A DNA stretch of 44,516 bases from Burkholderiales bacterium (lineage in GTDB: Bacteria; Pseudomonadota; Gammaproteobacteria; Burkholderiales; Burkholderiaceae_C): NCBI GenBank assembly GCA_003963075.1, contig RXJV01000030.1:1-44516 (forward strand), written 5' to 3'. The notes beneath the pieces are model-generated. The model was not told the origin of the DNA, made no database searches, and saw nothing but the letters and a program-made list of their open reading frames with translations. How positions within the stretch are numbered: the first letter of the stretch is position 1; every line of letters begins with the position of its first letter. The position numbers were made by a program, and so were the translations under genes. Below are positions 39,007 to 43,629 of this stretch, piece after piece.

Positions 39007-39045
39007 CGCTTCTTCCGGCACATGCCAATCAACCGGGAGAAGCCC

Positions 39046-39912
39046 ATGCAGGTGGTTTCGATCATTTCGACCAAGGTAGGCGTGGGCAAGACCACGACGG
39101 CGGCCAACCTGGGCGGCTTCGCGGCCGACTCCGGGCTGCGCGTGCTGCTGCTGGACCTGGACGTGCAGCCCACGCTGTCGAGCTACTTCACGCTGACCGA
39201 ACGTGCGCCGGCCGGCATCTACGAGATGCTGGCCTACAACGAGCAGCGCGCCGAGCAACTGGTGTCGCACACCGCCATCGCCGGGCTGGACCTGGTGCTG
39301 TCGAACGACGACCGCGGCGAATTGAACACGCTGCTGCTGCATGCGCCGGACGGCAGACTGCGACTGCGTCACCTGGTGCCCACGCTCGCGCCGCGCTACG
39401 ACCTGCTGCTGATCGACACCCAGGGCGCGCGCAGCGTGTTGCTCGAAATGGCGGTACTGGCCTCGGATCTGGCACTGTCGCCGGTGACGCCGGAAATCCT
39501 CGCGGCACGCGAGCTGCGCCGCGGCACCTTGCAGCTCATCGAGGACATCGCGCCGTACCGGCACCTCGGCATTGAGCCACCGCCGCTGCATCTGCTCATC
39601 AACCGCGTGCATTCGGTGTCATCCAACGCGCGGCTGATCCAGCAGGCGCTGCGGCAGGTGTTCCAGGGACAGTCCGGCGTGCGTGTGCTCGACACCGACG
39701 TGCCGGCTATCGAGGCCTATCCGCGCGCTGCCACGCAGGGCCTGCCGGTGCATCGGGTGGAGTACCGCCAGCCGGCGGGCCGCTCCGCCCCCGCGGCGCT
39801 GGACACCATGCGCGCGCTGGCCGGCGAGCTGTTTCCGGCGTGGCATGAGCGCTTCGCGCTCGTCACCGGCCGAGGCAGCACAGGAGGCGTCGGCCGTGGC
39901 CAGCGAGCATGA
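39046..39912 (+). CDS. parA: ParA/Soj-type partition ATPase of the ICE
   Basis: This 288-residue protein belongs to the deviant Walker A family that positions DNA with ParB. The P-loop reads STKVGVGKTTTAANLGG: the signature lysine is present, but the usual KGG is KVG. YDLLLIDTQGARSVLLEMAV is the Walker A' / B region. In ICEclc, parA together with shi is linked to arrested division of transfer-competent cells. ATG 39046 with GGGAGAAG upstream is preferred over 39022. The end overlaps the next gene by 17 bp. Confidence 0.9.
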   Translation: MQVVSIISTKVGVGKTTTAANLGGFAADSGLRVLLLDLDVQPTLSSYFTLTERAPAGIYEMLAYNEQRAEQLVSHTAIAGLDLVLSNDDRGELNTLLLHAPDGRLRLRHLVPTLAPRYDLLLIDTQGARSVLLEMAVLASDLALSPVTPEILAARELRRGTLQLIEDIAPYRHLGIEPPPLHLLINRVHSVSSNARLIQQALRQVFQGQSGVRVLDTDVPAIEAYPRAATQGLPVHRVEYRQPAGRSAPAALDTMRALAGELFPAWHERFALVTGRGSTGGVGRGQRA

Positions 39913-40153
39913 ACTGGCCCGCGGCCACAAGCGGCTGCGAGTGCTGATCGAGTTTGCCCTGAGCGAAGGATGGAAGGTGGTGCGCACCCGTGGCGGGCAC
40001 CTGTTGTTCACGAAGCCGGGCTGCGCGCCGATCTACACCAGCTCGATGGCGAGCGACCACCGCGCCGAGCGCAATGCCCGTGCGCAGCTTCGCCGCGCCG
40101 ACCGCCAGGCGCAGGCTGCCGAGGCATCGCCGCAGGAGAACGGCCATGGCTGA
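39896..40153 (+). CDS. Shi-position small protein with HicA-like fold
   Basis: In this 85-residue protein the central segment LRVLIEFALSEGWKVVRTRG then HLLFTKPGCAPIYT follows the pattern of the HicA/YcfA double-stranded-RNA-binding-like fold, including the Gly-Gly-His stretch. No HicB-type antitoxin is adjacent, so a classical toxin-antitoxin pair is not supported. By position (between parA and parB) it corresponds to shi of ICEclc. GTG 39896 is chosen: AGGAGG lies eight bases upstream. It overlaps parA by 17 bp and parB by 8 bp. Confidence 0.65.
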   Translation: MASEHELARGHKRLRVLIEFALSEGWKVVRTRGGHLLFTKPGCAPIYTSSMASDHRAERNARAQLRRADRQAQAAEASPQENGHG

Positions 40154-41825
40154 CATGACGCCGGACGACATGGCCGCCAAGCTGCTGGCCTCGGGCTTCG
40201 AGCGCAGCGGCCCTTCTGCCGCGGCCCTGACCGACCCCATCGCCGACACGCCGATGGTCGTAACGCTGGACCAGTTACGCTCCTATGACCATGACCCGCG
40301 CGTGACGCGCAACCCAGCCTACGAGGACATCAAGGCGTCGATCCGCGAGCGCGGGCTGGACGCGCCGCCTGCCATCACGCGCCGGCCCGGCGAGCCGCAC
40401 TACATCATCCGCAACGGCGGCAACACGCGCCTGGCTATCCTGCGCGAGCTGTGGAGCGAGACGAAGGACGAACGCTTCTTCCGCATCTCCTGCCTGTTCC
40501 GCCCTTGGCCGCAGCGCGGCGAGGTGGTGATGCTCACCGGCCACCTGGCCGAGAACGAGCTGCGCGGGGGCTTGAGTTTCATCGAGCGGGCCTTGGGCGT
40601 GGAGAAGGCACGCGAGTTCTACGAGCAGGAGATGGGGCGGGACAGCGGCCAGCCACTGTCGCAGAGCGAGCTGGCGCGGCGGCTCACGGCCGATGGCTTC
40701 CCGCTGCCGCAGTCGCACATCAGCCGCATGCAGGACGCGGTGCACTACCTGCTGCCGGCGATCCCGAACCTGTTGTACGGCGGGCTGGGGCGGCACCAGG
40801 TCGAGCGGCTCGCGGTGCTGCGCAAGGCCTGCGAGCGCACCTGGGAGCGGCGTGCGCTGGGCCGCAGCCTGTCGATGGACTTCGCCGCGCTGTTCCAGGA
40901 CGTGCTCGCGCAGTTCGACACGCAGCCGGACGACTTCTCACCCCAGCGCGTGCAGGACGAGCTGGTAGGCCAGATGGCCGAGCTGCTGGAAGCGGACTAC
41001 GACACGCTGGCCCTGGAGATCGACGACACGGAGAGCCGGCAACGTGCGCTGACCAGCGATCCGGCGCCGCCAGCGGCAGCACGACCTGCGGCGCCGACCG
41101 CACCTGCCCCCGAGCTGCGGCAACCTTCATCGGCTTCGTCGCCGGCTGGTCCTTCAGTGCAGTCGTCGGAGCCTCGTGCGTCCGTGCCGGCAGGTACTGG
41201 CAAGGCAGCACTGGCCGTTGGCGCCGAAGGCACGCAGCAGAACGAGCAGCACGACGAGCGCCTGCAGGGCCACATCGTGTCGCCGGCGCCGACCACCGAA
41301 CGCCTGCAATCCATCCAGCGCATGGTCGCCGACCAGATGGGCGACAAGCTGCCCGACTTCGAGGCTGACGCGTTGCGCGCGATTCCCGTCCAGGCGGGCG
41401 GGCTCTACCCCATCTCGGACGTCTGGTACATCGAGCCGGGCCTGGACGTACCGGATCGGCTGCGCGTGCACATCGCGCAGTTCGCGCGCGAGATCGCCGA
41501 GGAAGCCAGCGTGGCCGAACAGGTCGAGCCTAGCGACGCCGGCATCGGCTTCGCCTGCGTGACGCCGCCAGCTGCGCGCGCGATGCCGCCGTTTGCGCGG
41601 GCGGTGCTGACGCTGCTGCAGGCGCTGTGCGCCGCACGTGCCGCAGCCGGACTCGATCGCGCCCGGCTCGCCGATGATCTGGCGCCCTTGCTGTATGGCG
41701 GCGGCGCCTACCCTCGCCTGAGCGATGCCGGGCTGGTCAAACTGTTCCGGCTGCTGCGCCTGGCGCGTCGGCTTCTGGATCTGGAAGCCGGCGCGGGCGC
41801 CAGCGCTTCCGGCCACGGCGCCTGA
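40146..41825 (+). CDS. parB: ICE ParB-family protein (BisD-like)
   Basis: This 559-residue protein has a ParB/Srx-type domain near residues 38-120 (DQLRSYDHDPRVTRNPAYED, then ITRRPGEPHYIIRNGGNTRL), a helix-turn-helix region (SQSELARRLTADGFPLPQSH), a Pro/Ala-rich linker around 305-365 and a C-terminal domain. This large architecture is specific to PFGI-1/ICEclc-type elements. In ICEclc a ParB-domain protein, BisD, acts with BisC as the transfer-competence activator; equivalence here is inferred. Overlaps the preceding gene by 8 bp. Confidence 0.85.
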   Translation: MADMTPDDMAAKLLASGFERSGPSAAALTDPIADTPMVVTLDQLRSYDHDPRVTRNPAYEDIKASIRERGLDAPPAITRRPGEPHYIIRNGGNTRLAILRELWSETKDERFFRISCLFRPWPQRGEVVMLTGHLAENELRGGLSFIERALGVEKAREFYEQEMGRDSGQPLSQSELARRLTADGFPLPQSHISRMQDAVHYLLPAIPNLLYGGLGRHQVERLAVLRKACERTWERRALGRSLSMDFAALFQDVLAQFDTQPDDFSPQRVQDELVGQMAELLEADYDTLALEIDDTESRQRALTSDPAPPAAARPAAPTAPAPELRQPSSASSPAGPSVQSSEPRASVPAGTGKAALAVGAEGTQQNEQHDERLQGHIVSPAPTTERLQSIQRMVADQMGDKLPDFEADALRAIPVQAGGLYPISDVWYIEPGLDVPDRLRVHIAQFAREIAEEASVAEQVEPSDAGIGFACVTPPAARAMPPFARAVLTLLQALCAARAAAGLDRARLADDLAPLLYGGGAYPRLSDAGLVKLFRLLRLARRLLDLEAGAGASASGHGA

Positions 41826-41838
41826 GCGGAGATCGGCC

Positions 41839-42399
41839 ATGTCGGCACCGCACCCGCTCAACCAGGCCGTAATCGCGCAGGCGCTGCACGACCTGCGCAA
41901 CGGGCAACTACGACGCTGCAAAGCGATGGGCTTCGGCGAGGAAGAACTCGATGCGCTGAAGCATCCCGAACTCGTGAGCATGCTGGTCAACGCCACTGTC
42001 TCGTGGTGCTCGGTGTCGGTCAATCGCGAAGTGCTCAAGCGATTGCTGAGCCAGGTGCATGATGTGGAGCGCGAGATCGCGACGGTCGACCGCATGCTGC
42101 GCCTGGGAGCCAGCACGGAGATGGTCAGCCGCTTCTACGGCCTGACGCATCAGGAGGTGGCCCTGCGCCGCGACATCCTCGGCCTGCCCAAGCGCAAGGG
42201 GCGCCATCCGGTGCTGGACGAGGCGCAGGACACGGCGCTATGGAAGCAGTGGAAGGCTGGCGTCACGGAGCGCGGCATCGCGCTGGACGACGAGATGGCG
42301 ATGCTGGCGCTGACCATGGACCTGGCCGAGACCCTGAGCCTGCCGATGTCGGTGATCTGGTCGGCGATACGCAACTGGATCGACCAGGGGCTGGTATAG
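41839..42399 (+). CDS. DUF2857 protein (BisC/FlhC-like ICE activator candidate)
   Basis: This 186-residue protein starts MSAPHPLNQAVIAQALHDLR and contains LLRLGASTEMVSRFYG-type text (MLRLGASTEMVSRFYGLTHQ) diagnostic of DUF2857, a family with remote resemblance to FlhC-type activators. In ICEclc the protein after the ParB-like gene is the activator component BisC, which switches on ICE core genes in a minority of cells. It begins 13 bp after parB and ends 3 bp before the replication gene, so it is in the same operon. Confidence 0.8.
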   Translation: MSAPHPLNQAVIAQALHDLRNGQLRRCKAMGFGEEELDALKHPELVSMLVNATVSWCSVSVNREVLKRLLSQVHDVEREIATVDRMLRLGASTEMVSRFYGLTHQEVALRRDILGLPKRKGRHPVLDEAQDTALWKQWKAGVTERGIALDDEMAMLALTMDLAETLSLPMSVIWSAIRNWIDQGLV

Positions 42400-42402
42400 G
42401 CC

Positions 42403-43629
42403 ATGGCGACCGGCGGCGCACCCCGGCGCGATGGCCCTGTGGCGCTGTCGGCGCTGTTCGACGATGCGCTGCGGGAACTGGTGCCACCCGCACCGCCGGC
42501 TGCACGCGGCAACGCCCCTACGTCGCCGGCCGCGCCGGTCAGCGACGGCTTTCTCTACAGCGGCAACCGGCATGAGAGCGTGCCGCGCGCGCTGTTCCTC
42601 GACCGGCGCCTGACGCCACTGGAGCGCAATGCCTGGCAGGTGTTCCGCCTGCAGCTCCAGAGCGACGGTGTGACGGCGTTCCCGACCTACGACCAGCTCC
42701 GGCCCTATCTCGCGTCGATGCCTTGTGCGGCGCAGGCCTCGCACGAGACCGTGGCTCGCGCCCTGACGCTGCTGCGGCTGACGCGCTGGCTGAGCCTGGT
42801 GCGACGACGCCGCGACCCGAAGACCGGGCGCATCCTGGGAAATCTCTACGTGCTGCACGACGAACCGCTGACGCCCTTCGAGGCGATGCAGCTCGACCCC
42901 GACTACCTCGGCCTGGTCAGCCAAGCGCTGACCCATGCCGCGAAGGCGGTGCAGATCGTCGGCGCGAACACCCTGCGCGAGATCGCCGAAGACCCGATGC
43001 TCAATGGCCGCACGCTGCCCACGCGCTTGCAGGTGCTGGCACAGCGCATGGCACGCAACGAATGGGCCGATGCGAGTTGTCCACAAGAGCCTGTGGATCA
43101 CGATTCCGAAGAAGGCCAGGGCGGCCTACTTCGGAATCTCGATGGCCCGTCTTCGGATTCCGAAGCAGGGCCGAAGCCCGCGCCAGACGGCTCACTTCGG
43201 AATCCGAAGGAGGACCGTACTGTACGTATGGATCGTATAAATCAAGTACGTACAGTACCGCGCGCGAAAGCGCTGCAGCACTTGCGCCTGCCCGAGCGTC
43301 TGCTGCGATTGAAGGACGAGCAGCAGAGCGGCGCGCTCGTGGCTTTGCAGCAGGTGGACGAGCCCCTTCGGCAGGCGGTGCTGGACGAATGGGATGCGCG
43401 TTGCCGCAACAGCGCGGTGCGCAACCCGGCCGGCTATCTGTTCGGCATCATCCAGAAGGCGATCCGCGGGGAGTTCAAGGCCTGGGCAGGTGACAACGGC
43501 GCAGCGCCACAAGTCGCTCGAACACCTGCGCCGGCACACGCCACACCTGCTGCCGAGTCCCGTCCCGCCGATCCCGAGGTGGCGCGCGCCTACCTGGCAC
43601 AGATTCGATCCAACCTCCGCCGCCCTTGA
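42403..43629 (+). CDS. STY4528-family island replication protein
   Basis: This is a 408-residue protein. The N-terminal half carries a winged-helix-like region (NAWQVFRLQLQSDGVTAFPT, then TVARALTLLRLTRWLSLVRR) typical of STY4528-type pathogenicity-island replication proteins. Residues about 225-285 form a low-complexity linker. The C-terminus has LFGIIQKAIRGEFKAWAG, which recurs in plasmid replication factors. Many ICEs replicate after excision, and this is the likely initiator or primosome factor. The DNA of the linker contains an origin-like repeat cluster (43077-43258), so protein and cis-site may be encoded by the same bases. Confidence 0.8.
   Translation: MATGGAPRRDGPVALSALFDDALRELVPPAPPAARGNAPTSPAAPVSDGFLYSGNRHESVPRALFLDRRLTPLERNAWQVFRLQLQSDGVTAFPTYDQLRPYLASMPCAAQASHETVARALTLLRLTRWLSLVRRRRDPKTGRILGNLYVLHDEPLTPFEAMQLDPDYLGLVSQALTHAAKAVQIVGANTLREIAEDPMLNGRTLPTRLQVLAQRMARNEWADASCPQEPVDHDSEEGQGGLLRNLDGPSSDSEAGPKPAPDGSLRNPKEDRTVRMDRINQVRTVPRAKALQHLRLPERLLRLKDEQQSGALVALQQVDEPLRQAVLDEWDARCRNSAVRNPAGYLFGIIQKAIRGEFKAWAGDNGAAPQVARTPAPAHATPAAESRPADPEVARAYLAQIRSNLRRP
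43077..43258. other. origin-like cluster inside the replication gene
   Basis: Two DnaA-box-like sites in opposite orientation (TTGTCCACA 43077-43085; TGTGGATCA 43092-43100) are followed by four repeats of one palindromic core. These are GATTCCGAAG (43102-43111), CTTCGGAATC (43129-43138), CTTCGGATTCCGAAG (43151-43165) and CTTCGGAATCCGAAG (43195-43209). Then comes a perfect 12-bp inverted repeat (43217-43228, 43247-43258) around an AT-rich 18-nt loop. This resembles a replication origin; function is inferred. Confidence 0.55.

Follow-up and report, generated by a model that had tools for sequence, protein, structure and literature searches.

A candidate iteron origin within the gene of its proposed initiator, a STY4528-family protein

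The locus and its motifs

The window analysed here, a stretch of 44,516 nucleotides, is one entire contig (RXJV01000030.1) of the 173-contig assembly GCA_003963075.1 from a Burkholderiales bacterium. It carries what we take to be an element of the ICEclc kind; elements of the pKLC102/ICEclc/SPI-7 type are widespread in Proteobacteria. Close to the right end of the window lie, in this order, a ParA-like gene, parB, a DUF2857 gene and a STY4528-family gene. The last of these (42403-43629, forward strand, 408 amino acids) encodes the protein that we propose as a replication initiator. Its translation matches the family profile NF040582 of NCBIfam at 404.7 bits, against a cut-off of 130, and the NCBI name for this family is already ‘pathogenicity island replication protein’. 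An initial annotation, made from the letters of the window alone, had singled out positions 43077-43258 within this gene as an origin-like element, and we find all of its motifs in that segment.

The segment opens with a DnaA-box-like 9-mer, TTGTCCACA (43077-43085, forward strand), one mismatch away from TTATCCACA, which is the exact sequence at this place in most relatives of the clade. A second, opposed 9-mer, TGTGGATCA (43092-43100, reverse strand), is likewise one mismatch from TTATCCACA. Where the initial annotation counted four copies of a palindromic core, we find two full ones and two half sites. The full ones, iteron sites 3 (CTTCGGATTCCGAAG, 43151-43165) and 4 (CTTCGGAATCCGAAG, 43195-43209), are perfect palindromes of the form CTTCGG-N3-CCGAAG. 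Site 1 (43097-43111) keeps only its right half, TCCGAAG at 43105-43111, and site 2 (43129-43143) only its left half, CTTCGGA at 43129-43135, each matching at 11 of 15 letters; jointly, sites 1 and 2 make a larger inverted repeat. Directly beside the iteron sites lies an AT-rich tract (43217-43258), the proposed unwinding element, whose AT content of 62% is reached by only 0.7% of the 42-nt windows of the contig. It is bounded by the inverted arms GTACTGTACGTA (43217-43228) and TACGTACAGTAC (43247-43258), which are perfectly complementary around a loop of 18 nt.

To judge these motifs against chance, we used synonymous-codon shuffles, which keep the protein and its codon usage fixed. None of 2000 shuffles reached the two 13-mers TTCGG-N3-CCGAA, the six half-site 7-mers, or the two DnaA-like 9-mers at one mismatch or fewer; at two mismatches or fewer, 132 of 2000 reached the pair of 9-mers. 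The 12-bp inverted repeat was reached by 49 of 2000 and is thus, by itself, only moderately unusual. Dinucleotide shuffles of the window form a less decisive null, and here four of 100 reached the four strand-wise matches (at most three mismatches). In the whole assembly (4.65 Mb, completeness 95.65), CTTCGGAWTCCGAAG is confined to the two palindrome positions of the window.

Constraint at synonymous positions

STY4528 relatives were collected from genome contigs (80 loci), further genomes, viral contigs and plasmids. The genome-contig scan found at least 559, from many genera, of which the best 80 were used, so that the set is biased to close relatives; the viral contig scans gave only three. 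Of 149 loci, 131 had a match, and 105 genes, the window's included, scored over 480 and were taken as the clade, leaving out L001, which is the window again. The codon alignment of these 105 held 88 unique sequences and 59 representatives below 97% identity.

Among the 59 representatives, we compared synonymous differences with their expectation, using only codons for which the amino acid is shared. The observed-to-expected ratio is 0.44 for 43078-43258 and 1.09 for the rest of the gene. The minima for windows of 21, 41 and 66 codons are 0.27, 0.34 and 0.44 and fall at 43189-43251, 43129-43251 and 43069-43266, and at none of these three sizes did any of 2000 column permutations give a value as low. 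The lowest values of the gene, 0.22-0.36, are those of 11-codon windows over the AT tract, and the trough ends where the motifs end. Amino-acid identity, in turn, is lowest in the part of the protein that this DNA encodes, a linker (0.78), compared with the N-terminal (0.91) and C-terminal (0.84) domains; DNA letters are thus retained where the protein is freer to vary. The initial annotation had suggested selection on the DNA and proposed to look for repeats conserved at synonymous positions in related genes. They are so conserved, and that the DNA itself is under selection inside the STY4528 coding sequence is well supported by these alignments.

Two neighbouring genes served as controls, and both lie on the forward strand in the stretch upstream of the STY4528 gene (39022-42399). 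This stretch holds the ParA-like gene (39022-39912), parB (open reading frame (ORF) 39990-41825) and the DUF2857 gene (41725-42399). ParB, in 40 sequences from the same loci and taken from its true start, gave minima of 0.60, 0.72 and 0.78 at 21, 41 and 66 codons. With the out-of-frame 5′ extension of the ORF included, which overlaps a HicA-like frame, they were 0.19, 0.31 and 0.63; the start of ParB is probably near 40146. For DUF2857 (59 sequences) the minimum was 0.56 at 21 codons, only at the start that overlaps the end of parB, and 0.91 at both 41 and 66 codons. The frame overlapping the parB extension (39683-40153) is called HicA-like from its position and its likeness to an annotated HicA in the record of a relative. 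The same gene order, from the ParA-like gene to STY4528, is found on records of P. veronii, Stutzerimonas and pKLC102.

The individual motifs are not all conserved alike. Box 1 is an exact TTATCCACA in 81 of the 88 unique sequences and 55 of the 59 representatives, the window being one of the seven of 88 without it. At one mismatch or fewer it is present in all, so that each of the 59 representatives has such a box next to its iterons. Two or more full palindromes are found in 78 of 88 unique sequences and 51 of 59 representatives (at least one in 58 of 59), at least five half-site 7-mers in 57 of 59 representatives, and an AT tract with at least two GTACGTA/TACGTAC words again in 57 of 59; iteron sites 1 and 2 are conserved as single halves. 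Two features that the initial annotation had made part of the element belong to individual lineages, and we rejected both as defining parts. The second, opposed DnaA-like box, present in the window as described, recurs in 15 of 88 unique sequences and 8 of 59 representatives, and a perfect inverted repeat of at least 12 bp around the AT-rich loop in 11 of 88 and 6 of 59.

Two further observations concern single relatives. L060 (1384-2577) has an open STY4528 frame in which the palindromes are degenerate, possibly a decaying origin. The window protein has matches of 100% identity, over the best segment, in L070 and L071, which are metagenome-assembled genomes (MAGs) of a Burkholderiaceae and a Nevskia; this suggests either a recent spread of the element or mis-binning.

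The encoded protein

We modelled the full-length protein with AlphaFold, using 20 sequences. The N-terminal domain (residues 47-221, 42541-43065) is read, from its predicted secondary structure, as a winged helix-turn-helix (HTH). This part of the model has the helix and strand order of such a fold, with helices up to residue 218, and when modelled alone it reaches a predicted local distance difference test (pLDDT) score of 83.4. HTH_36 is matched at E≤1 in 7 of 32 family members, the window protein not among them. Towards the other end, a C-terminal helical domain (residues 298-354, 43294-43464), with a pLDDT of 80-91 per 10-residue block, is the proposed partner-recruiting part. Between the two, residues 222-289 (43066-43269) have a pLDDT below 50 and are predicted to be a disordered linker, and their coding DNA coincides with the constrained DNA. 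The iterons thus sit between two protein domains, and the initial annotation's placement of the motifs in the linker of a STY4528-type protein agrees with the model.

The likely recognition helix, as predicted, comprises residues 111-126 (42733-42780). Across relatives, His114 pairs with the palindrome arm CTTCGG and Arg or Lys at 114 with GTTCGG, while proteins without Glu after residue 114 have other arms. We regard the match between His or Arg and a C or G arm as a lead that is only suggestive.

Searches for relatives of the fold gave two results that we set aside. A viral structure library returned two matches at E≤0.001, an uncharacterised protein and an HTH-domain phage protein, with template modelling scores of 0.15 and 0.22 on the query, and a PDB sequence match to ribosomal protein S17 (E 0.0056) was taken as chance. 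Separately, the STY4528 C-terminal part recurs in proteins of 439-640 amino acids that are unmatched to its N-terminal part (L035 1189-2505 on the reverse strand, L004, L005, L064, L066 and L067). All six of these genes have internal repeats above each of 30 synonymous shuffles, and L035 has a weak, below-cut-off match to DnaA_N (E 0.00063). A wider initiator superfamily sharing the STY4528 C-terminal part is possible from these similarities.

Other members of the family

Selection on the segment recurs in a separate clade. For an Enterobacterales set we excluded pairs below 62% identity, which left 13 genes (11 below 98.5% identity). All 13 carry at least two GTTCGG-N3-CCGAAC palindromes, and their synonymous minima of 0.18, 0.30 and 0.40, at 0.60-0.66 of the gene, were matched by none of 1000 permutations. 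In the corresponding region, the STY4528 gene of pKLC102, whose protein is about 40% identical, has four full GTTCGG-N3-CCGAAC palindromes and, after them, an AT-rich tract.

For the family at large we counted repeats in 35 chosen genes out of 140, located the AT maximum in 31 genes, and ran the tests for DnaA boxes, AT content against shuffles and TAG arrays on 32 diverse genes; many genes in these sets are related, so the counts that follow are not independent events. The repeat count lies above all 30 synonymous shuffles in 25 of the 35, and the repeat peak falls at 0.48-0.73 of the gene in 31. As a positive control, the same count in the lambda O gene gave 208 repeat pairs, whereas 100 shuffles averaged 90.7 and went no higher than 157. 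In 29 of 31 genes the AT maximum falls between 0.53 and 0.73 of the gene length. The palindrome itself changes with lineage in the same gene region: it is AGTTCCAATAAGGAACT in ICEHin1056, whose STY4528 gene (L154) has AGTTCC palindromes, and CAGTCTCCTGAGGAGACTA in an E. coli island, and palindromes of other letters are found in L025 (GTGTGCAAATATTGCACAC) and L024 (AAGTTCAAAATTTGAACTT). An origin-like anatomy in many family members, built on different repeat sequences, is thus supported by these comparisons. We did not accept a CGCGCG tract lying 3′ to the AT tract as a family feature, its signal being too weak (9 of 32 genes against 3.0 expected).

The preferred DnaA-trio of chromosomal origins is 3′-GAT-5′ as a whole motif, which equals TAG read 5′ to 3′. 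Arrays of (TAG)3+ or (CTA)3+ occur in 15 of the 32 diverse genes (L025, L018, L016, L042 and 11 others) against 0.23 expected from synonymous shuffles; the 15 include several closely related genes and should not be read as separate events. All of the arrays lie at 0.52-0.77 of the gene, the region of the AT tract, and the window gene has no TAG or CTA trinucleotide arrays. A DnaA box at one mismatch or fewer stands near the array in only 3 of the 15 (L061, L031 and L026), so the likeness to DnaA-trios may mean that another protein captures the opened strand. In the accessible portion of a paper on the DnaA-trio, the motif is a 3′-GA-5′ pair and the T after it (PMC10721633).

Discussion

We consider it probable that 43077-43258 is an intragenic iteron origin and that the STY4528-family protein, encoded by the surrounding gene, is its initiator. 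The motifs, the selection at the level of DNA, the position in the predicted linker and the recurrence in many members with changing palindromes were all computed directly. In the mechanism that we infer, the N-terminal winged-helix domain would bind the iteron sites, the full palindromes probably as a dimer, and the bound complex would open the neighbouring AT-rich tract, in this clade with the aid of DnaA on one box. The C-terminal domain would then recruit the replicative helicase, and the excised element would use the segment as the start of its replication. Because the segment codes for a disordered linker, the protein would tolerate the letters that the DNA element requires.

Several findings weigh against this interpretation. 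At the protein level, confidence in the full-length model is intermediate (mean pLDDT 69.4, predicted template modelling score 0.49), and neither it nor the N-terminal model matched a solved structure in the PDB at E≤0.001, so that the assignment as a winged helix draws on the predicted secondary structure and the HTH_36 matches. Because the C/G arm change occurs only once on a quick protein tree, we rejected the match of arm and residue 114 as statistical proof; the arm labels were assigned manually. Across the family, the initial annotation had taken the same linker without conserved repeats as evidence against an origin. This is not what 25 of the 35 genes show, but ten are not above all shuffles (L002, L060, L062, L019, L022, L042, L023, L020, L026 and L029), and L063 and L003 exceed all shuffles yet have no exact repeated palindrome. 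Only 21 of 32 genes have an AT maximum that exceeds every one of 40 shuffles, and the DnaA box, found in 6 of 32 diverse genes, was rejected as a family-wide part. At the level of replicons, the interpretation is favoured by the circular records pY89 and S. zhaodongensis A252 (117 kb), which list no initiator-kind gene outside the module of STY4528, STY4534 and DnaB, but the PLSDB gene tables are incomplete and each of the two has an integrase gene; pY89 and pKLC102 are typed as rep_cluster_322 (PLSDB replicon type). We rejected the Pantoea plasmids as proof of autonomy, since pPant4 (L160-L161) combines the STY4528 module with another ‘replication initiation protein’, and a PLSDB replicon type is assigned to 8 of 9 other Erwiniaceae records (L168-L176). 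Finally, loss of TraI or oriT1 reduces replication of excised ICEclc, so a relaxase route may dominate; according to the accessible portion of that report, its authors allow that the residual replication may point to other mechanisms (PMC6561031).

The palindromes could instead be operators or parS-like partition sites, bound by the STY4528 protein or by ParB and serving regulation or segregation. The ParA-like and parB genes lie directly upstream, dyad sites for an HTH protein are equally typical of operators, and PAPI-1 is destabilised by loss of soj, as the accessible part of one study reports (PMC4489591). Yet the sites are some 690-810 bp away from the start of the frame; the gene's AT maximum comes after them (at 0.53-0.73 in those 29 of 31 genes) and, in the clade, a DnaA box comes before them, and a centromere or operator requires neither an AT tract nor a DnaA box. 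No further copy of the exact palindrome is present in the assembly, and so none upstream of the operon. We consider this alternative unlikely.

Replication might also proceed solely by rolling circle from a relaxase and oriT, the segment being a relic or an accessory origin kept by common descent, as the dependence of ICEclc on TraI and oriT1 would allow (PMC6561031, in part). A relic would decay, as may be the case in L060, whereas two separate clades show strong constraint at synonymous positions, which makes this explanation quite improbable. That the constraint acts on RNA, through hairpins in the mRNA and not through sites in the DNA, has in its favour that palindromes form RNA hairpins too and that sites 1 and 2 make a larger inverted repeat. 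But these two sites are retained as single halves, conservation extends to the DnaA box and to the AT tract, and the arms vary between lineages along with the recognition helix, so we think it very unlikely. An artefact of codon bias or of low protein complexity is barely credible: the linker is low in complexity and the DUF2857 and ParB ORFs have some low stretches, but nulls that keep protein and codon usage fail to give the motifs, column permutations fail to give the trough, and the low stretches are confined to the parB-overlapping start of DUF2857 and the out-of-frame 5′ extension of ParB.

Returning to an intragenic origin, parts of it have precedents. The palindromes of the wider group have already been proposed as an oriV, in PFGI-1 in 2009. 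The AT-rich first half of that putative oriV, which lies upstream of PFL_4669, contains the palindrome CTGAGTTCGGAATCCGAACTCAGT four times as direct repeats, and according to the accessible portion of the paper there is no Rep protein encoded by PFGI-1 (PMC2647930). In core and number these palindromes are as the four GTTCGG-N3-CCGAAC of pKLC102, while the window has two full and two half sites. As the family of PFL_4669 follows STY4528 in relatives, the PFGI-1 palindromes most likely lie within PFL_4668, a presumed STY4528 homologue; the accessible portion of the paper does not place them within an initiator gene (PMC2647930). Further downstream come G+C-rich repeats, of 46 bp in the second half of the PFGI-1 oriV and of 57 bp in pKLC102, which lie at the 3′ end of the STY4528 gene or past it. 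Those of pKLC102 (L012 13370-14235, tandem, about 15 copies, just 3′ of STY4528) are possibly a separate control or partition site. For ICEHin1056-type islands, iteron-like and indirect repeats in an AT-rich part of the replication module were described as a putative oriV, and the accessible portion of the paper gives no intragenic position and no link to an encoded protein (PMC2258188); a postulated oriV is mentioned for pKLC102 in the part available to us of another paper (PMC7685784).

The initial annotation had called an intragenic origin in this family undescribed. The intragenic placement stands, as we found no publication assigning one to the STY4528 family in the accessible literature (most subscription papers were outside the search); the origin as such is anticipated by the oriV proposals for PFGI-1 and ICEHin1056-type islands and by the NCBI family name. 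Its interpretation as a whole is therefore partly supported. What appears new is a conserved element inside a proposed initiator gene across much of the family, under measurable selection and matching the predicted disordered linker.

More tentatively, and with less than even confidence, we propose that STY4528 proteins are widespread theta-type initiators that arose independently of lambda O and RepC, have the origin in the linker-coding part of their gene and vary their DNA-reading helix in step with the palindrome. For unwinding, roughly half of the diverse members would use a TAG array like DnaA-trios, mostly without an adjacent DnaA box, so that the initiator, or DnaA that it delivers, would capture the opened strand. 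Current accounts leave PFGI-1 without a Rep protein and credit ICEclc replication to a relaxase and oriT1; our analysis puts forward a protein as candidate initiator and, at single-base resolution, a segment as candidate origin. The paired initiators and iterons of the family further form a natural series from which DNA specificity could be read, and the results suggest that an origin hidden in the linker of its initiator is a recurrent solution.

Two known systems invite comparison. In plasmid p42d, a repABC replicon, oriV lies within repC, and silent changes in its AT-rich part abolish replication; p42d repC has neither iterons nor DnaA boxes, according to the accessible portion of the report (PMC3155836), unlike the window STY4528 gene with its iteron sites and DnaA-like box. 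The likeness is in the layout, partition genes followed by a (proposed) initiator gene with the origin inside. RP-C_C is matched in 5 of 32 members, all below cut-off (best E 0.045). Homology to lambda O was not detected (hhalign probability 0.1%; Phage_rep_O, PF04492, in 0 of 32 members), and we rejected descent from it; the pKLC102 protein has a weak match to phrog_678, ‘replication initiation O-like’ (E 0.03). STY4528 would thus work like lambda O and RepC rather than being a demonstrated member of either family. In lambda, the origin is within the O gene, with four inverted-repeat iterons followed by an AT-rich tract, and the iterons, which are annotated in J02459, are bound by the N-terminal half of O (PMC4488673, PMC5043065 and PMC7466680, each in its accessible portion). 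The repeats lie at 0.39-0.48 of lambda O and at about 0.6 of STY4528, and, unlike lambda O, the STY4528 clade keeps a DnaA box and has adjoining partition genes and, in several relatives, dnaB. In both, repeats stand inside the (proposed) initiator gene beside an AT-rich tract, and lambda O with its origin shows the same arrangement as the one we propose here.

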